A DNA stretch of 64,000 nt, taken from NCBI RefSeq assembly GCF_029278605.1, contig NZ_CP119572.1, positions 930,001 to 994,000 of the forward strand, read 5' to 3'. Positions 26,874 to 34,310 of this stretch are shown piece by piece (within the stretch, counting starts at the first letter, position 1; every line of letters starts with the position of its first letter). The notes below the pieces were generated by a model. The model was given only the letters and a program-made list of their open reading frames with translations, searched no databases and was not told the origin of the DNA. Source of the DNA: Cupriavidus sp. WKF15. GTDB lineage: Bacteria; Pseudomonadota; Gammaproteobacteria; Burkholderiales; Burkholderiaceae. A program made the translations under genes and the position numbers.

Positions 26874-27521
26874 ATGCCCGAGTTCCTTCCCCCGTGGCCG
26901 CTGCTTGGCGCCTTCGTGCTGGCCAGCCTGGCGCTGGCCGTGACGCCAGGCCCGGCGGTGGTCTATATCGTGACGCGTACGCTGGCGCAGGGCCGGCGTG
27001 CCGGGCTGGCGTCCGTCGGCGCCGTCGCGCTGGGCAATCTTGGTAATGCCGCGGGCGCCGCGCTCGGACTGGCCGTGCTGTTCTCGGTGTCGGCGCTCGC
27101 TTTTACCGTGGTGAAGTACGCGGGGGCGGCGTACCTGATCTGGCTGGGCATCCGTACCTTGCGCGCCGCGCCGGCAGTTGCCACGGATACGCCGCCGCCG
27201 GCGCGTCCGCTGCGCCAGGTATTGCGAGACGGCTTCGTGGTGGCCCTGCTGAATCCCAAGACCGCGATCTTCTTCGCCGCCTTCCTGCCGCAGTTCATGA
27301 ACCCGGCCGGTTCTGCGCTGACGCAGAGCCTGGCGCTGGGCGTGGGCTTCGTGCTGATCGCGGCGACCACCGACGTCTGCTACGTGACCGCGGCGGCCGC
27401 CGTGATGCCGGCGCTGCGCCGTGCCGGCCGGGCGCGGGCGGCAGGCCGCTACCTGACGGCTGCAGCCTTCATCGGACTCGGGGTGTTCACGGCGGCGTCG
27501 GGCTCGCGCGCCGGCAAATAA
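26874..27521 (+). CDS. LysE/RhtB family amino-acid exporter
   Basis: Inner-membrane exporter of 215 residues with about six helices. The signature LALAVTPGPAVVYIVTRTLAQGRRAGLASVGAVALGN lies in helix 1-2, and GFVVALLNPKTAIFFAAFLPQFM at mid-protein is typical of RhtB/LeuE relatives. The ATG at 26874 follows AGGGAG. Family members export threonine, homoserine, leucine or lysine. It converges on the minus-strand MocR-linked operon and is separate from the LysE protein encoded inside it. Confidence 0.9.
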   Translation: MPEFLPPWPLLGAFVLASLALAVTPGPAVVYIVTRTLAQGRRAGLASVGAVALGNLGNAAGAALGLAVLFSVSALAFTVVKYAGAAYLIWLGIRTLRAAPAVATDTPPPARPLRQVLRDGFVVALLNPKTAIFFAAFLPQFMNPAGSALTQSLALGVGFVLIAATTDVCYVTAAAAVMPALRRAGRARAAGRYLTAAAFIGLGVFTAASGSRAGK

Positions 27522-27541: not shown

Positions 27542-28186
27542 TCAGCGCAGCGGCAGTTCCAGGATGCCTTCGGCGGCCGGGCGCGCGCGCATGGCGGCCA
27601 GCCAGCGCTCCAGCTCGGGGCGCGGTTCGTGGGCGACCGGCGTGCCCATCCAGCGATGGGCGGCGCAGGCCAGCGAGATGTCCGCCATGGTGAAGCGGTC
27701 GCCGCCGATGAACTCGCGCCCGGCCAGGGCCTTGTCGAGCAGCGCGGCCAGCGGCTCGGTGCGTGCGCATGACGCGGCCACGGCGGCATCGTCGCGCTTC
27801 TCGGGTGCTACGCGCACCATGTTCAGGAAGGCGGTGACCATGGCCGGGCTGAAGGTGGTGGTCTGCCAGTCCATCCAGCGGTCGGCCGAGGCGCGCGCCT
27901 TGACGTCTTCCGGCCACAGCGTGCCCTCGCCATACCGCGCGCACAGGTAGCGCACGATGGCATTGGATTCCCACAGCACGAAGGGCTCGCCGCCCACGTC
28001 CGTGCCGCGGAAGTCCTCGATCACGGGGATCTGGCGGTTGGGGTTGAGGCGGACATAGGCTTCGGTGTCCAGATCGCCCTGGTTGACGCCGATGTCCACG
28101 CGCTCATGGTCCAGGTGCAGCTCGCGCGCGCACCAGACCACCTTCTGTACATTGATCGACGACAGTCGACCCCAGATCCGCAGCAT
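27542..28186 (-). CDS. Glutathione S-transferase family protein
   Basis: Cytosolic GST of 214 residues. The N-terminal thioredoxin-like domain has SSINVQKVVWCARELHL, LNPNRQIPVIED and the glutathione gamma-glutamyl contact ESNAIVRYL. The C-terminal helical domain contains FTMADISLACAAHRW. Ser in the first loop suggests a theta/beta-like catalytic residue. It is the last gene of the minus-strand operon behind the aminotransferase (33-base gap), so it may detoxify an electrophile arising in that pathway. Confidence 0.9.
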   Translation of the reverse strand: MLRIWGRLSSINVQKVVWCARELHLDHERVDIGVNQGDLDTEAYVRLNPNRQIPVIEDFRGTDVGGEPFVLWESNAIVRYLCARYGEGTLWPEDVKARASADRWMDWQTTTFSPAMVTAFLNMVRVAPEKRDDAAVAASCARTEPLAALLDKALAGREFIGGDRFTMADISLACAAHRWMGTPVAHEPRPELERWLAAMRARPAAEGILELPLR

Positions 28187-28219
28187 GAAGATTCTCCCCT
28201 GATCTTTTGCGGTTGTTTT

Positions 28220-29410
28220 TCAGGCCACGCGGGCCTGCGGCGCCGAGGCGATGGCTTCGCGGAACAACTTGCCCAGGATCGCCACGCCTTGTTCAATACG
28301 CTCGGGCGGCACGGTGACGAACGCCAGGCGCAGCGTGTTGCGCTGCGGGTTGCTGGCATAGAAGGGCGCTCCCGGCACATAGGCGACATTGCGCTTCACC
28401 GCTTCCTCCAGGATCGCCATGCTGTCCAGCCCCAACCCTTGAGGCAACTGCACCCAGATGAACATGCCGCCCTCGGGCTGGTTCCAGCTTACGCCTTCGG
28501 GCATGTGGCGCGCCAGCGCGTCGAGCATGACCTGGCACTGCTTGCCGTACAGCGCGCGGATGGTCGGGATGTGGCGATCGAGCAACCCGTCGCGCACGGT
28601 CTCGTAGGCCACGCGCTGGGTGAAGCTCGGCGTATGCAGGTCGGATGCCTGCTTGGCCTGGCACAGCTTGAAGTGCAGTGCCGGCGGTGCGATCACGAAG
28701 CCCAGGCGCAGGCCCGGTGCCAGGATCTTGGAGAAGGAACCCATATAGATCACGCCGTCGGGGTTCATCGACAGCAGGGTCGGGAGCTGGTCGCCGGTGT
28801 AGCTCAGTTCGCCATAGGGATCGTCTTCGACCAGCAGCACGCCGAACTCCTTGGCGCGCGCCACCAGGGCCTGGCGGCGTTCCAGCGGCAGGCGGCGGCC
28901 GGTCGGGTTCTGGAAGTTGGGCAGGGCGTACAGGAAGCGCGCGCCGGCGGTCAGCTCGGCGGTCAGCGCTTCAGGCTGCAGGCCCTTGTCGTCGGTGGGC
29001 ACGGAGGTGAACTCCGGCTCGAACAGCGAGAACGCCTGCAGCGCGCCGAGGTAGCTAGGCGTTTCCACCAGCACCTTGCTGCCCGGATCGATCAGCACCT
29101 TGGCAATCAGGTCCAGCGCCTGCTGCGAGCCGGTGGTGATCAGCACGCGCTCCACGGCCACATTGTGGCGCCTGGCGATGAATTCGCGCAGCGGCAGGTA
29201 GCCTTCGGTGGCCGCGTATTGCAGTGCGGCGGCCGGGTTGTCGGCAAATACACGGGCCGTCGCCGCCTCCAAGGCCGCTACCGGGAAGGATGCCGGCGAG
29301 GGCAGTCCGCCGGCGAAGGAAATGACTTCCGGACGCTCGGTCACCTTCAGGATTTCGCGGATGGCCGAGCTGGTCAGTTGCTGTGCCCGGCGGGAGATGG
29401 CCCATTGCAT
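28220..29410 (-). CDS. PLP-dependent aminotransferase class I/II (LysN/2-aminoadipate aminotransferase-like)
   Basis: Cytosolic aminotransferase of 396 residues. Visible features are GGLPSPASFPV, QYAATEGYLPLREFIA, TTGSQQALDLIAKVL, NFQNPTGRRLPLERR and the Schiff-base lysine in YMGSFSKILAPGLRLGF. This architecture matches the MocR-C-domain/LysN group, which transaminates branched-chain, aromatic or alpha-aminoadipate substrates with 2-oxoglutarate. It sits in the operon with RidA, consistent with imine or enamine intermediates. The exact amino donor is unknown. Confidence 0.9.
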   Translation of the reverse strand: MQWAISRRAQQLTSSAIREILKVTERPEVISFAGGLPSPASFPVAALEAATARVFADNPAAALQYAATEGYLPLREFIARRHNVAVERVLITTGSQQALDLIAKVLIDPGSKVLVETPSYLGALQAFSLFEPEFTSVPTDDKGLQPEALTAELTAGARFLYALPNFQNPTGRRLPLERRQALVARAKEFGVLLVEDDPYGELSYTGDQLPTLLSMNPDGVIYMGSFSKILAPGLRLGFVIAPPALHFKLCQAKQASDLHTPSFTQRVAYETVRDGLLDRHIPTIRALYGKQCQVMLDALARHMPEGVSWNQPEGGMFIWVQLPQGLGLDSMAILEEAVKRNVAYVPGAPFYASNPQRNTLRLAFVTVPPERIEQGVAILGKLFREAIASAPQARVA

Positions 29411-29452
29411 GATATTTCTCTTTTGTCTGGGGAGAACCGCCTGGCGGGCGGT

Positions 29453-29782
29453 TCAGTCAACGATGAATAGTCTGGCCCCGGTCGGCGTGGACGATCGGTG
29501 CGGTTCCGCCTGGTCGGCGACCTGGTAGCTCGTGCCCGCGCGGAGCACGAACTGGCGGCCGTCTTCCAGTTCGGTATGCAGTTCGCCGTCCAGGACGAAC
29601 AGGATATGGCCCTTGGTGCACCAGTGGTCCGCTAGGTAGCCGGCCGAGTACTCGACCATGCGCACCCGGATGTCGCCGAACTGGCGCGTGCGCCACAGCG
29701 CCTCGCCCCGTTCTCCGGGGTGGCGCGTGGGTTCGACCGCGGACCAGTCGGTGGTGCCGAAGGGCAGGTTGTCGATGCGCAT
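29453..29782 (-). CDS. DHCW-motif cupin-fold protein
   Basis: Small cupin of 109 residues. The sequence SAGYLADHWCTKGHILFVLDGEL contains the eponymous DHCW motif in the first cupin box, followed by FVLRAGTSYQVAD. Family members are uncharacterised and may bind a metal or small ligand. It lies between RidA (19 bases upstream) and the aminotransferase gene (42 bases downstream), so it probably acts on or senses an intermediate of the same pathway. Confidence 0.88.
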   Translation of the reverse strand: MRIDNLPFGTTDWSAVEPTRHPGERGEALWRTRQFGDIRVRMVEYSAGYLADHWCTKGHILFVLDGELHTELEDGRQFVLRAGTSYQVADQAEPHRSSTPTGARLFIVD

Positions 29783-29801
29783 CGCGGCAGCGGCAGTCCG
29801 T

Positions 29802-30257
29802 TCAGTTCACTTCGACGATCATTTCGATCTCGACGCAGGCGCCCAGCGGAATCTGCGCCACGCCGAACGCGCTGCGCGCGTGCTTGCCCTTGTCGCCGAA
29901 GACTTCGGCCAGGAACTCCGAGGCGCCGTTGGTCACCAGATGCTGCTCGGTGAATTCCTGCGTCGAGTTCACCAGGCTCATCACCTTGACGATGCGCGTG
30001 ACGCGGTTCAGGTCGCCCACGTGCGCATGCAGCGTGGCCAGCAGGTCGATGGCGATGGAACGCGCGGCGGCCTTGCCGGATTCGGTGTCGATGTCCTTGC
30101 CGAGCTTGCCGGCCCATACCTTGCCGTCCTTGCGGGCGATATGGCCCGACAGGAACACGGTATTGCCGGTCTGCGCGGCCATGACATAGGCGGCAGCCGG
30201 GGCGCCGGCGGTGGGCAGTTCCACGCCAAGGCGTGCAAGGGTGTCATAGACGGACAT
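29802..30257 (-). CDS. RidA family reactive-intermediate deaminase
   Basis: YjgF/YER057c/UK114-fold protein of 151 residues, trimeric in known members. RidA hydrolyses 2-aminoacrylate and related enamines/imines released by PLP enzymes, protecting other PLP enzymes. The motifs GNTVFLSGHIARKDG, HARSAFGVAQIPLGACVEIEMIVEV and the conserved Arg within ARS are present, suggesting catalytic competence. It is longer than E. coli RidA (128 residues) because of an N-terminal extension. It is encoded 11 bases after the EamA remnant. Confidence 0.88.
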   Translation of the reverse strand: MSVYDTLARLGVELPTAGAPAAAYVMAAQTGNTVFLSGHIARKDGKVWAGKLGKDIDTESGKAAARSIAIDLLATLHAHVGDLNRVTRIVKVMSLVNSTQEFTEQHLVTNGASEFLAEVFGDKGKHARSAFGVAQIPLGACVEIEMIVEVN

Positions 30258-30268
30258 GTGATCTCCTG

Positions 30269-30604
30269 TCAGTGAGTGCGTTCGGAAAGGATAGGGGGCG
30301 TTTGTGCTGCGGTTGTGGGGACCGTGGGGACGGCCTGTTGCACGGCGGCGCGGCGGCCCAGTGCCACCACGGCGATCACGGCCACCGCGAAGGCGATGGT
30401 GGCGGGGTCAAGCGGCTCGGCCAGCAGCAGGGTGCCGCCCGCCAGCGCCAGAAACGGCTGCAGCAATTGTATCTGCCCGACACGCGCCACGACGCCTTTT
30501 GCCAGGCCCGCATACCAGAAGCCGAGCAGCATGCCGCTGAAATGCGGCGGGTGCGAAGCGGAGGGGAGCGTCAGTACAGAGGTCATGGCAATGTTGGCGG
30601 TCAT
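30269..30604 (-). pseudogene. EamA permease remnant (C-terminal fragment)
   Basis: Frame of 111 codons matching only the last third of an EamA/DMT permease: FSGMLLGFWYAGLAKGVVARVGQIQLLQPFLALAGG followed by LLLAEPLDPATIAFAVAVIAVVALGRR. Intact members have about 290 residues and ten helices, while only about three remain. The first 24 codons (MTANIAMTSVLTLPSA) do not look like a permease start, suggesting a large internal deletion. The reading frame and operon spacing (7 bases after the LysE stop, 11 before RidA) are kept, so polar effects are avoided. Transport function is unlikely. Confidence 0.7.
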
Positions 30605-30611
30605 GGCCGGA

Positions 30612-31250
30612 TCAGGCCGCCGCGGGTTGCACGCTTACGGCGATCCACGCGGCGGTGAGTGCCAGCGCCAGGCCCATGGCGCGGTTGAACCAGCGCACGC
30701 GCTTGCCCTGCATCAGCCATTGCCGCAACGAAGCGCCCAGCACGCCGTACACGCTGTTGCTGACGAAGCCGAAGATGCCGAAGGTCGTGCATACCAGCAG
30801 CACCCGTTGCGCGGGCGAGGGCGCACCGGCCATGTACGACGCCGCGGTGGCCAGCGCCATCATCCACGCCTTGATGTTGGCGTACTGCAGCACGGCTGAC
30901 TGCCACACACTGAGCGGGCGCAGGACCTGTTTCTCCGCGAGCACGGTGCTGCGCGCGAGCCTGGCCGCCAGCCACAGCAGGTAGCCCACGCCGGCCATGT
31001 GCACGATGGTGGCCAGCGCCGGATTGCTCAGGATCAGCGCGCCGACGCCGACCGCGCACAACGCGAGGATGCTGGCAAAGCCGAAGGCCACGCCCACGCA
31101 ATGGGGCAGCGTCGCGCGCAAGCCGAAATTGGCGCCGGTCACCGCGGCAATGGTGGTATTGGGCCCCGGTGTGAACGAACCCACCGCAAGCAAGGTGACG
31201 AGCGCCAGGAATTGCGCGGCCGAGAGGCCGGTCAAAAAATCTCCGGTCAT
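30612..31250 (-). CDS. LysE family exporter (operon member)
   Basis: Inner-membrane exporter of 212 residues with about six helices. The signature VTLLAVGSFTPGPNTTIAAVTGANFGLR lies at the first helix pair, and YANIKAWMMALATAASY occupies the mid-protein position of the NPK-type motif, diverged. The ATG at 31250 lies five bases after the AlaX stop, so translation is probably coupled. Likely substrate is a neutral amino acid or toxic analogue, given the AlaX and RidA genes around it. It differs clearly from the other LysE protein at 26874. Confidence 0.88.
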   Translation of the reverse strand: MTGDFLTGLSAAQFLALVTLLAVGSFTPGPNTTIAAVTGANFGLRATLPHCVGVAFGFASILALCAVGVGALILSNPALATIVHMAGVGYLLWLAARLARSTVLAEKQVLRPLSVWQSAVLQYANIKAWMMALATAASYMAGAPSPAQRVLLVCTTFGIFGFVSNSVYGVLGASLRQWLMQGKRVRWFNRAMGLALALTAAWIAVSVQPAAA

Positions 31251-31255
31251 GGCGC

Positions 31256-31969
31256 TCAGGCGAAATTGACGACCACGCGCCGGTTGGTGCGGCTCTTCTT
31301 CTCGATCTTGGTGACGGCCACGGTGCCGATCTCGCCGGTGTTGGCCACATGCGTGCCGCCGCACGGTTGGCGGTCCACGCCCGGGATCTCGACGATGCGG
31401 ATGCTGCTGGTGCCGGCCGGCGGCGCGGCGCCGATGGTGCGTACCAGCTCGGGCTGCGCAGCCAGCTCCTGCGGCGTGATCAGCGTGATGCGCACCGCGG
31501 TGTTGGCACGGATCAGCGCATTGAGCTGTTCGGTCAGCTCGGCCTTGTCCAGCGTCGATTCGGGCAGGTCGAAGTCGATGCGCGCCGAATCGGGCGAGAT
31601 GCCGCAGCCCGTTACCGGCACCGGAATCAGCGAGCCCAGCAGGTGCAGGCAGGTGTGCAGGCGCATGAGCCGGTGGCGGCGTTGCCAGTCAATGGCTACC
31701 GTGACGCGCTCGCCCGGCCGCGGCAGCTGCGCCCCCGCCACGGGCACGTGCAGGATGCGGGCGCGGTCGTCGGCATAGACGGTGTCCGCGATCCCGATGG
31801 TGCGGCCATCCGCCAGGGTCAGCGTGGCCGTGTCGCCGGCCTGGCCGCCGCTGCGTGCATAGCAGACGGTCTCGTCGAGCTCGATGCCGGCCTCGCTCGC
31901 CGACAGCACGGTCGCGCTGCAATGGTCGAGGTAGGGATCGTCGTCGAAGCGTTTGCGCGTGGCGGTCAT
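31256..31969 (-). CDS. Alanyl-tRNA editing protein AlaX
   Basis: Free-standing trans-editing domain of 237 residues that hydrolyses mischarged tRNA-Ala (Ser- or Gly-tRNA-Ala in known enzymes). The zinc ligands are visible as HTCLH (HxxxH) and CGGTH (CxxxH). The N-terminal CYARSGGQAGD strand resembles the AlaRS editing core, matching the medium AlaX-M class. It is the second gene of the operon (40 bases after the VOC gene). Its presence beside an exporter and RidA suggests serine or alanine-analogue stress. Confidence 0.92.
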   Translation of the reverse strand: MTATRKRFDDDPYLDHCSATVLSASEAGIELDETVCYARSGGQAGDTATLTLADGRTIGIADTVYADDRARILHVPVAGAQLPRPGERVTVAIDWQRRHRLMRLHTCLHLLGSLIPVPVTGCGISPDSARIDFDLPESTLDKAELTEQLNALIRANTAVRITLITPQELAAQPELVRTIGAAPPAGTSSIRIVEIPGVDRQPCGGTHVANTGEIGTVAVTKIEKKSRTNRRVVVNFA

Positions 31970-32009
31970 CGGTGGGTCTCCGTGGTCTTGTTCTTGTCGA
32001 TGTTCGGGT

Positions 32010-32687
32010 CTAGCGCAGGGTACGGATGCCCTGCGGCGTTTCGATTTCTGCGATGAGCTGCGGCGGACCGTCGCTTTGTTCCAGCGTCATCAGAGGCTCG
32101 CCGCCCAGCCACGCCAGGCCCTGGCGCAGCAATTCGGCATTCGGGTGCCGGCCGGTGAGCCGGCGCAGCGCCAGGTCCTGCCGCGGCAGGCTTGCGCCCG
32201 GGGGCGGCGCCACGTCCCACTGGATCAGGCTCGGCAGCAGGCCGTCGCCGGCGCTGGCGGCTTCACCGTGCCATGCCGGCAGGCTGCCGTCCTCGGGCAC
32301 CGTGATGCGCCAGTGCAGGTCGCCGCGCTGCATGGCAATGACCGGCGCGATCCGGTCGGGATACTGCGCCTGCCAGCGCGTCAGGTCGGCGGGCCGGGTC
32401 ACGCGTGCTGCCCAGTGCAGCAGGCAGGGGCCGCCCTCCAGGCGCTTGCGCACGCTGTCGCTGTCGAGCCCGAACCAGCGCGGGCGCCGCGGCGCGGGGG
32501 CGTCCGGGTCGATCGCGATCACTTCCAGGTACATCCCGCCAAAGAGTCCGAGCACGCGGTTGTGCGTGCCCATGGCCGCATGGGCGCCGCCACCGTGCGG
32601 GGCAACGCCGAGCACGTCGGCGACGTATTCCGTGCCGGCATCGAGCGTCTGGGCGGCAATGACGAGGTGATCGAGGGCGAGCTTCAT
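32010..32687 (-). CDS. VOC superfamily (glyoxalase-like domain) protein
   Basis: Protein of 225 residues beginning LALDHLVIAAQTLDAGTEYVADVLGV, the first beta-alpha-beta of a glyoxalase-like domain, with HNRVLGLFGGMYLEVIAIDP at the next metal-ligand positions. The longer length and second half (LPRQDLALRRLTGRHPN) fit the Glyoxalase_3-like group of unknown function. It is the first gene of the minus-strand operon, divergent from the mocR gene across 84 bases. Confidence 0.85.
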   Translation of the reverse strand: MKLALDHLVIAAQTLDAGTEYVADVLGVAPHGGGAHAAMGTHNRVLGLFGGMYLEVIAIDPDAPAPRRPRWFGLDSDSVRKRLEGGPCLLHWAARVTRPADLTRWQAQYPDRIAPVIAMQRGDLHWRITVPEDGSLPAWHGEAASAGDGLLPSLIQWDVAPPPGASLPRQDLALRRLTGRHPNAELLRQGLAWLGGEPLMTLEQSDGPPQLIAEIETPQGIRTLR

Positions 32688-32693
32688 GTTGGC

Positions 32694-32757
32694 TTGATGG
32701 TAGACAAGGTAGTCGGTACAGTACCGGTACAGTTATGCGGATCGTATTCAGTACAGT
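32694..32757 (+). promoter_or_regulatory. Divergent VOC/mocR promoter with three GTACAGT repeats
   Basis: GTACAGT occurs at 32716-32722, 32727-32733 and 32751-32757 in the same orientation, 11 and 24 bases apart. The first two overlap the palindromes CGGTA-cag-TACCG (32714-32726) and GTACCGGTAC (32721-32730). TTGATG (32694-32699), a 17-base spacer and TACAGT (32717-32722) form a possible mocR promoter. MocR proteins are known to bind direct repeats, so this is a strong operator candidate. Confidence 0.6.
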
Positions 32758-32771
32758 TGCGGGAGCACTAC

Positions 32772-34310
32772 ATGGATGGCAGCCACCAGCAGGATTCCTC
32801 CGCCGCGCCCGAGCGCAAGGATAGCGAAGGCGGCGCACAGGACACGTCGGCGCGCCCGTTGCGGCTGGTCGTGCCGCCAGGCGCGGCCGGCAGCACCGAA
32901 CGCATGCCGGACCCGGTGCCGTCGGCGCAGATGACGCTGGTCGAGCAACTGACCGAATGGGCCCGCATGCGCATCGACGAACGCGTGTTCCGCGCGGGCA
33001 TGCGCATGCCGTCGATCCGCCAGCTGGCGCAGGAGAAGGGCATTTCGCGCTTTACCGTGGTGGAGGCCTATGAACGCCTGGTGGCGCTGGGCTACCTGGA
33101 ATCGCGCCGCGGCTCGGGCTTCTACGTGCGCGAACGCGTGGCGCAGGCCTCGGCCGCGCCGGTGGCACCCGTGGCGGTGGCCGCGCGCAATATCGACGTG
33201 ACCTGGCTGCTGCGCAGCATGTTCCATACCGCCGAGACCCACAAGGCGCCGGGGCTGGGGTTCCTGCCCAACGAATGGCTCGATGGCGAACTGATCGCCA
33301 GCGCGCTGCGCGGGCTGGGCCGCCAGCCCGGCAGCCATTTCCTGGCCAGCGGCACGCCGCAGGGCTTCCTGCCGCTGCGCCAGCAGCTGCGCACGCGGCT
33401 GGAGGAACTGGAGATCGGCGCCACGGCGGAGCAGATCGTGCTGACTTCGGGCATCACGCAGGCGCTGGACCTGATCGCGCGGCTCTACCTGCGCCCGGGC
33501 GACACCGTGCTGGTCGGCGACCCGGCCTGGTTCGTGATGTTCGGCCGCTTTGCCGCGCAGGGCGCGCAGGTGACCGGCGTGCCCTACACGGCCGAAGGTC
33601 CGGACCTGGAGGCGCTCGAGCGCATCGTCCAGGCGCACCGGCCGCGCCTGTTCGTCATCAACTCGGTGCTGCACAACCCGACCGGCACCTCGCTGTCGGC
33701 CGCCAAGGCGTTCCGGCTGCTGCAGATGGCCGAGCAGTACGATTTCCTGATCGTCGAGGACGACATCTACTGCGACCTGTGCCCGCCGGGCCACGCGGCG
33801 ACACGGCTGGCCAGCCTGGACCAGCTGCGCCGCGTGATCTACCTGGGCAGCTTTTCCAAGACGCTGGCGGCGAACCTGCGCGTGGGCTTTGTCGCCGCGC
33901 ACCCGGACCTGGCCGCGACGCTGACCGACAGCAAGCTGCTGGCCGGCCTGGCCACGCCGGAAATCAACGAGCGCGTGCTGTACAAGGTGCTGACCGAGGG
34001 CCACTACCGCAAGCACGTGGAGCGCGTGCGCGGCCGCCTCGACCGGGCGCGCGACGAAACCCGCCGCGAGCTGGAACGCCGCGGCCTGCGCCTGTTCCCC
34101 GGCCAGCATGCGGGCATGTACCTGTGGGCCGATACCGGCCGCGATACCAATGCCATCGCCACCGCGGGGCACGAGGAGGGCTACCTGTTCGCGCCCGGCA
34201 GCCTGTTTTCCCCGTCGCAGATGCCGTCGGGGTGGATGCGCTTCAATGTCGCCAGCAGCGGCGATCCCGACATGCTCGATTTCCTGTCCCGGCAACTGGA
34301 CCGGCGCTGA
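32772..34310 (+). CDS. MocR family transcriptional regulator (GntR HTH fused to aminotransferase domain)
   Basis: Cytosolic PLP-binding regulator of 512 residues. Winged-helix domain at about 50-125 (FRAGMRMPSIRQLAQEKGISRFTVVEAYERL, then GYLESRRGSGFYV). Class I aminotransferase-like domain at about 165-512, with LHNPTGTSLS, EDDIYCDL and the PLP lysine (K363) in GSFSKTLAANLRVGF. Such proteins sense an amino acid or amine through PLP and act as activators or repressors of divergent genes. The ATG at 32772 gives normal length. Its target is very likely the divergent operon starting with the VOC gene. Confidence 0.92.
   Translation: MDGSHQQDSSAAPERKDSEGGAQDTSARPLRLVVPPGAAGSTERMPDPVPSAQMTLVEQLTEWARMRIDERVFRAGMRMPSIRQLAQEKGISRFTVVEAYERLVALGYLESRRGSGFYVRERVAQASAAPVAPVAVAARNIDVTWLLRSMFHTAETHKAPGLGFLPNEWLDGELIASALRGLGRQPGSHFLASGTPQGFLPLRQQLRTRLEELEIGATAEQIVLTSGITQALDLIARLYLRPGDTVLVGDPAWFVMFGRFAAQGAQVTGVPYTAEGPDLEALERIVQAHRPRLFVINSVLHNPTGTSLSAAKAFRLLQMAEQYDFLIVEDDIYCDLCPPGHAATRLASLDQLRRVIYLGSFSKTLAANLRVGFVAAHPDLAATLTDSKLLAGLATPEINERVLYKVLTEGHYRKHVERVRGRLDRARDETRRELERRGLRLFPGQHAGMYLWADTGRDTNAIATAGHEEGYLFAPGSLFSPSQMPSGWMRFNVASSGDPDMLDFLSRQLDRR

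Follow-up and report, generated by a model that had tools for sequence, protein, structure and literature searches.

Which task unites a MocR-type regulator with amino-acid exporters, an aminotransferase, an enamine deaminase and a free-standing tRNA-editing protein is the question raised by a block of genes in Cupriavidus sp. WKF15. The stretch of DNA analysed here (the window) comprises 64,000 nucleotides of contig NZ_CP119572.1 (positions 930,001 to 994,000), in a genome of 7.38 Mb and three contigs. Nine frames lie at window positions 27542-34310, eight on the minus strand and, divergent from them, the plus-strand gene for the MocR regulator. From 27542 to 32687, the minus-strand frames are GST, aminotransferase (AT), DHCW cupin, Rid, a piece of EamA, LysE, AlaX and VOC, separated by gaps of 33, 42, 19, 11, 7, 5 and 40 bases. 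Frames were named by their Pfam and NCBIfam profile scores against curated cut-offs, and both the layout and the names given in a preliminary description of the locus (VOC, AlaX, LysE, RidA, DHCW, aminotransferase, GST and MocR, with gaps of 5-42 bases) agree with these results, except that the Rid protein is more exactly of the Rid1 type within its family. The comparison of related genomes suggests that the locus is probably a MocR regulon that relieves amino-acid overload. Below, g, f, G and L denote a genus, a family, a genome and a fetched locus, respectively, and the family sample refers to 200 genomes drawn from the window's GTDB family; several counts include related genomes and thus do not represent independent events.

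A predicted operator shared by two units

The regulator (32772..34310, plus strand) consists of a GntR DNA-binding domain (54.6 bits in Pfam) fused to an aminotransferase-like domain (Aminotran_1_2, 116.4 bits), the arrangement that defines the MocR subfamily. Its translation contains the motif GSFSKTLAANLR, which we take to bear the lysine that binds pyridoxal 5'-phosphate (PLP) in such proteins. Upstream regions were compared among 45 fetched MocR loci, including that of the window's genome, some of which overlap or are close relatives. The common element is formed by CTGTAC boxes spaced 24 and 11 bases, followed by a TAnnnT hexamer at a constant distance. In the window, this predicted operator and promoter (32697..32756, minus strand, read from the sequence by pattern comparison) lies between the VOC start (32687) and the MocR start (32772), with CTGTAC boxes at 32756-32751, 32732-32727 and 32721-32716 and a -10-like TACCAT at 32702-32697. 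If up to two mismatches are allowed, the pattern TGTACCGKTACTGT-N15-TANNNT is found in 43 of the 45 loci (L201 and L207 have 4 and 5), and the best of 900 shuffles had 4 mismatches; the N15 gap was chosen from the same 45 loci, which are not independent of the pattern. Of the 200 genomes of the family sample, 151 have the operator when a single mismatch is tolerated, none of them holding more than two copies, and the reversed control gave 8 hits in total. All of these 151 are among the 154 genomes that carry the AT gene, compared with 0 of the 46 genomes lacking it, a contrast whose Fisher value takes no account of relatedness. A genome-wide family of simple CTGTAC pairs was also considered and rejected: at two mismatches, the reversed control was commoner than the pairs (141/153 versus 281/281), so only the full pattern of operator and -10 box was used. 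The constant distance to the -10-like box is suggestive of MocR working as an activator near -35, and since the VOC start codon follows this box by 10 bases (window 32685-32702), the operon message may be nearly leaderless. Control by MocR, as previously proposed, is thereby supported by a conserved predicted operator.

The window's genome holds the operator pattern twice, and the other copy is located 34 bases before LysE_B, a LysE-family gene of 208 amino acids (C1:3160091-3160714) that is unlinked to the operon, at a distance of 2.2 Mb. LysE_B is present in 36 of 40 genomes of the window's genus. Among 30 fetched LysE_B loci, the element was detected within 200 bp and with no more than one mismatch in 29, and with two mismatches in the remaining one; 3000 shuffles yielded a best match of 3 mismatches. 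Fourteen genomes are common to the LysE_B survey and the operator scan: the second site stands beside LysE_B in all 12 that carry the gene, and G312 and G341, which are devoid of it, have the operon site only. In g128 and g3, a second site off the operon contig is followed by a LysE_B of 51-55% identity in 20 of 20 fetched loci. Six distinct second sites were found in the small genomes of g137 and g138 (L312-L315, L292 and L316, the last equal to L293), none of them directly before LysE_B. Here, the sites are followed by racemase-like (Asp/Glu racemase) frames and some FMN-binding or DJ-1 genes, named partly by Pfam and otherwise by eye, and a LysE or EamA exporter comes next in four of the six (L292, L313, L315 and L316). 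The first site of these genera stands before AT in L163 and L164, and the fetched stretches contain no Rid or MocR match. Taken together, the constant theme of these sites across the genera is exporter plus aminotransferase.

Judging by the conserved operator and its copy before the unlinked LysE_B, the locus looks like part of a MocR regulon made up of two units, which would export amino acids, transaminate them and clear enamines. The second LysE-family gene, preceded by the same operator, thus supports the proposed function in amino-acid export, and the extent of the unit has to be revised: the coordinates given for the operon are right, yet the probable regulon reaches beyond them to an exporter 2.2 Mb away.

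Conservation of the block and its variable members

A scan of named genomes with AlaX returned 66 loci, 19 of which are of the Cupriavidus type (18 titled Cupriavidus and L061 titled Ralstonia sp.). All 19 keep the block next to htpG and contain MocR, AlaX and LysE; VOC is present in 18 (missing in L050), and EamA, Rid, AT and GST are likewise present in 18, L055 being a short contig. DHCW was found in 9 of the 19 and is missing in 9 of the 18 that are long enough. This recurrence places the block far from chance. In the family sample, AT is present in 154 genomes (E<=1e-90) and Rid in 183 (E<=1e-30), and the two lie no more than 2.5 kb apart in 138 of the 139 genomes with both among the matches listed, which cover 147 of the 154 AT genomes and 148 of the 183 Rid genomes; the sole exception, G380, has the two genes on separate contigs. 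Fourteen fetched loci outside the window's genus contain MocR beside AT, accompanied by Rid and htpG in all 14 and by VOC and EamA in 10 each. Rid precedes AT in the g140 and g123 loci, which share the Rid-AT arrangement of Cupriavidus, whereas 12 loci have AT-Rid. The scenario of a gene order restricted to one strain, which would have spoken against the preliminary description, therefore did not occur, as synteny beside htpG extends across genera. For 20 AT loci from other families of the order, matches to MocR, EamA, LysE or Rid adjoin AT in 10: f8 presents MocR followed by LysE/EamA, Rid and AT with variations (htpG near in three), and f49 presents LysE, EamA and AT, some with MocR, GST or VOC. 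The remaining 10 loci, including all 6 of f4, have none of these four beside AT, L196 showing only a weak partial MocR match.

These comparisons indicate that the old core beside htpG in Burkholderiaceae is MocR with the LysN-type AT and Rid1, together with EamA and/or LysE and often VOC. A conserved unit of all eight genes, as first envisaged, was rejected: DHCW, AlaX, the operon LysE, GST and VOC come and go between loci, and EamA is broken in the window. The VOC protein encoded by the operon's first gene (32010..32687, minus strand) belongs to Glyoxalase_3 (Pfam, 140.8 bits), and the last gene (27542..28186, minus strand) encodes a glutathione S-transferase-like protein (GST_N_2, 43.1 bits; GST_C_2, 40.6 bits). 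The DHCW-motif cupin (29453..29782, minus strand) scores 180.9 bits with NF038084, above its cut-off of 70, and is an optional gene. DHCW was rejected as a core part, given that only 4 of the 52 DHCW-bearing genomes in the family sample place it between Rid and AT, which corresponds to 4 of the 22 genomes of the window's genus.

The EamA gene (30269..30604, minus strand) encodes only the last part of a transporter, with 111 amino acids left and a fragment score of 24.0 bits, under the cut-off of 28.2. Compared with its relative in L044, it is 666 bp shorter, in frame. The match covers at least 320 of the 333 query residues in the 18 Cupriavidus-type loci that reach the gene, with an internal stop only in L047, in a survey that left out matches below 120 bits. 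Calling this frame an EamA remnant was therefore correct, and by this comparison the exporter gene is broken in the window strain by an in-frame internal deletion. The preserved frame would spare the downstream genes, and export in this strain would rest on the two LysE proteins.

Several further observations concern individual members of the block. In L050 (Cupriavidus lacunae), VOC is seemingly cut to its first and last few codons, as judged by eye, and the operator and AlaX remain. A second AT copy of 72% identity lies on another contig of a genome of the window's genus (G388:C2:1300711, L152), with no operon-gene matches around it. A further LysE-family gene (window 26874-27521) is directed towards the GST gene and occurs in 11 of the 19 Cupriavidus-type loci; its best model is a homoserine efflux protein (117.1 bits, below the cut-off of 209).

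Substrate hints from Rid1, the aminotransferase and the exporters

The Rid protein (29802..30257, minus strand) scores 61.1 bits with YjgF_endoribonc (cut-off 35). Among named proteins with solved structures, PA0814 (90.1 bits) and ACIAD3089 (74.9 bits) match it better than yeast 1jd1 (23.8 bits), and the best match overall is the unnamed 3d01 (122.3 bits). The arginine of its 'HARS' motif aligns with 'ARS' of 1jd1, as expected for the Rid1 subfamily, and presumably occupies the position of the catalytic Arg105 (PMC4433059). PA0814 and ACIAD3089 are Rid1 representatives that deaminate 2-aminoacrylate, and a figure legend of the same study describes a ridA mutant on serine and cysteine media being rescued by proteins of the RidA and Rid1 types (PMC5619798). 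The PLP-dependent AT (28220..29410, minus strand; Aminotran_1_2) has as its closest relative of solved structure the 2-aminoadipate aminotransferase LysN (2egy_A, 358.3 bits; next best, 345.9). The arginine in its 'SAIRE' motif aligns with that of 'STIRE' in LysN. The operon LysE (30612..31250, minus strand) is assigned by Pfam LysE with 43.5 bits (cut-off 25.6). For both LysE proteins, the best model is the cysteine/O-acetylserine transporter EamB (PRK10323), with 63.4 bits for the operon LysE and 79.5 bits for LysE_B, under its cut-off of 193.

AlaX as an accessory gene

AlaX (31256..31969, minus strand) is a free-standing alanyl-tRNA editing protein, recognised by its tRNA_SAD domain (53.4 bits, cut-off 24) and by HxxxH/CxxxH motifs, presumably the metal motifs. 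Its HTCLH and CGGTH align with the solved AlaX proteins 2e1b (HTGLH) and 9iuw (HSALH). The score with the AlaX-M equivalog (NF040865) is 179.7 bits, below the cut-off of 300, which the relatives in L150 (189.2) and L086 (212.9) miss too. Only the window's genus (18 of 22 genomes) and g140 (16 of 16), which may be Ralstonia, have an AlaX of 72% identity or more within the family sample; the rest of the sample shows either an AlaX of 39-52% identity or no match at E<=1e-30. The gene lies within 4 kb of AT in 17 of the 18 genomes of the window's genus, the exception being G312 (other contig), and in 15 of the 16 of g140, where G380 has it within 2 kb of the Rid gene. Because AlaX is absent from the fetched regulon loci of genera other than these two, many of whose genomes keep an AlaX elsewhere, it is no core part; rather, by this distribution, it is an addition to the set in the window's genus and g140, and DHCW is likewise an addition.

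Elsewhere, AlaX occurs in other settings. The 16 Achromobacter loci contain VOC-AlaX without the rest of the block, and the 4 Delftia loci contain AlaX without the rest, L078 alone having VOC as well. The Achromobacter VOC-AlaX loci yielded no match to the window's MocR. As a separate observation, the Achromobacter pairs (L056-L082) have an operator-like TGTACGGGTAC with at most 4 mismatches before TACCAT in 13 of 16, a count that has no shuffle control. In the VOC tree, Achromobacter and Delftia group with Cupriavidus, apart from 9 of 10 other Burkholderiaceae rows; the test against forcing the Cupriavidus VOC together with other Burkholderiaceae was marginal (p-AU 0.0486) and does no more than suggest that VOC-AlaX moved horizontally. 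Among 20 alphaproteobacterial AlaX loci (L084-L107), the genes for cysteine synthase A (cysK) and 3-mercaptopyruvate sulfurtransferase (sseA), two families named from L088, lie within 4 kb in 17 and 15, respectively. Rhodospira trueperi (L086:7327-10702) has a threonine dehydratase gene (462 bits, cut-off 317) followed by AlaX, and a MocR other than the window's runs divergently from this pair. The gammaproteobacterial L089 has only a weak MocR match near AlaX, and L100 and L108 have nothing. The neighbourhood covered in the order-wide AlaX loci L008-L033 was 1.5 kb. A side observation comes from the g140 genome G348 (L232:5227-7634), where an AlaX of 41% identity adjoins an EamA exporter and a 2OG-Fe dioxygenase resembling a hydroxy-isoleucine enzyme (121.7 bits, cut-off 350).

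Proposed mechanism and alternative explanations

If the locus is a MocR regulon for amino-acid overload, MocR would take the amino acid on its PLP and activate the operon together with the LysE_B unit. LysE, EamA and LysE_B would export the amino acid, the LysN-type AT would take off its amino group, and Rid1 would hydrolyse imines or 2-aminoacrylate. The window's genus and g140 would additionally use AlaX to clear the amino acid mischarged on tRNA-Ala. The Rid1 type, the best matches of the LysE proteins and the location of AlaX near cysK/sseA or threonine dehydratase weakly favour serine or cysteine as substrate and signal, and the signal is most likely serine, cysteine or a close beta-substituted alanine. 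The earlier proposal of excess serine or a similar amino acid is consequently supported in a circumstantial manner, by Rid1 rescue on serine and cysteine and by the AlaX neighbours. A further possibility, tentative and more doubtful than the general overload reading, is that MocR induces exporters, transamination, enamine quenching and tRNA proofreading jointly; in Cupriavidus and its sister genus, fidelity at alanine codons would then be an inducible element of the response to serine/cysteine overload.

A number of points weigh against an overload regulon. The evidence is all comparative, VOC, GST and DHCW have no assigned role in the explanation, and the exporter substrate matches are far under curated cut-offs. 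The LysN-type AT points away from serine, towards 2-aminoadipate or a broad range of substrates, and an enzyme of this type forms no 2-aminoacrylate in its normal reaction. Regarding the operator, simple CTGTAC pairs alone show no enrichment in the genome, three AT-bearing genomes (G260, G409 and G428) are without a site at one mismatch, G260 (L162) having one with two, and the single operator match of G433 lies away from the operon. AlaX is absent from the fetched regulon loci of other genera except g140, and many genomes of those genera keep an AlaX of 39-52% identity elsewhere. Finally, neither cysK nor sseA was found near AlaX in 9 Burkholderiales loci (L103, L105, L106, L109, L227-L229, L232 and L233), where the AlaX neighbour in L232 is only an EamA exporter and L109 has only a threonine-dehydratase-like match about 4 kb away.

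In the strongest competing explanation, which is rather unlikely, only MocR, the exporters, AT and Rid1 form the unit and AlaX, VOC, DHCW and GST are passengers on a handy promoter. AlaX, DHCW, GST and VOC each differ between genera, and VOC-AlaX stands alone as a pair in Achromobacter; yet AlaX is kept throughout g140 and in most genomes of the window's genus, and the Achromobacter pair still has its operator-like element in most loci, the count without a shuffle control given above. Somewhat less probable is a set of genes that fends off or exploits a single non-protein amino acid, such as a PLP-enzyme poison of plant or microbial origin. A precedent exists in CtdA, a free-standing editing protein adjoining a canavanine degradation operon (PMC10018355), and an exporter, an aminotransferase, Rid and AlaX would fit an alanine analogue. 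A niche trait would, however, hardly show an operator-AT pair as old and common as that found in 151 of 200 family genomes, and none of the eight frames was recognised as a specific degradative enzyme. The FMN_bind_2 gene found after the same site type in g137 also counts against amino-acid overload, as it fits vitamin B6 homeostasis of the PdxQ type, whereby MocR would sense free PLP and set exporters and PLP enzymes, with amino acids secondary; PdxQ regulons contain DMT or LysE transporters, aminotransferases and GloA-family lyases (PMC5320631). Here, however, the window's MocR reaches 251.6 bits with the PdxR equivalog (NF052282), under the cut-off of 320, no pdx gene is present among the window's eight frames by Pfam and NCBIfam (a check confined to these frames), and neither AlaX nor Rid1 is known to take part in supplying B6; this is the least probable of the three alternatives.

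Relation to known systems and significance

In Escherichia coli, AlaE, EamA and EamB are exporters relieving amino-acid excess, and the EamA and LysE families also occur in the window locus. To our knowledge, these E. coli exporters are not combined with MocR, Rid1 or AlaX. Regulons were reconstructed for 825 MocR regulators by Suvorova and Rodionov (2016; PMC5320631), and as in the window, some of them control aminotransferases and DMT or LysE/RhtB transporters and some a RidA-family gene, through repeated boxes in which TGT or TGG is usual. The RidA-family gene belongs to five regulogs spread over four groups, for which a response to PLP-enzyme damage was proposed, and the idea of amino-acid/enamine protection is thus already published in general form (PMC5320631). 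The preliminary description, which knew of no named system with this composition, overlooked that MocR regulogs with RidA and MocR groups with DMT or LysE transporters are in print, and it holds insofar as AlaX was not found in such a regulon in the literature searched. In contrast to the window regulon with its AlaX, the main text of that study has 0 matches to 'alanyl', and its sections covered here contain no statement of one regulon joining RidA with such exporters (PMC5320631). Rid genes also cluster with genes of PLP enzymes (PMC4433059), and the window resembles these clusters in having a Rid protein beside a PLP enzyme and a Rid1 type known to deaminate 2-aminoacrylate (PMC4433059; PMC5619798). 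The enzymes named there include aspartate aminotransferase and cysteine desulfurase, whereas the window combines a LysN-type aminotransferase with exporters and MocR.

For AlaX, the closest precedent encountered, in which an editing protein sits with genes for the guarded amino acid, is CtdA, which likewise is a free-standing tRNA-editing protein among genes handling a troublesome amino acid (PMC10018355). CtdA differs in being a B3/4-domain editor for Arg in a catabolic operon, with no family in common with the window locus. No paper joining MocR with AlaX, or alanyl-tRNA editing with cysteine synthase, was found in the literature searched. The cysK-alaX-sseA neighbourhood in Alphaproteobacteria offers an independent handle on the purpose of AlaX in bacteria. 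For a MocR group for which no assigned function was found, the locus provides a concrete predicted operator, a probable regulon of two units and a small set of candidate ligands. Should AlaX indeed be induced along with the exporters, a free-standing tRNA-editing protein would, unusually, be linked through its regulation to the very amino acid against which it protects.

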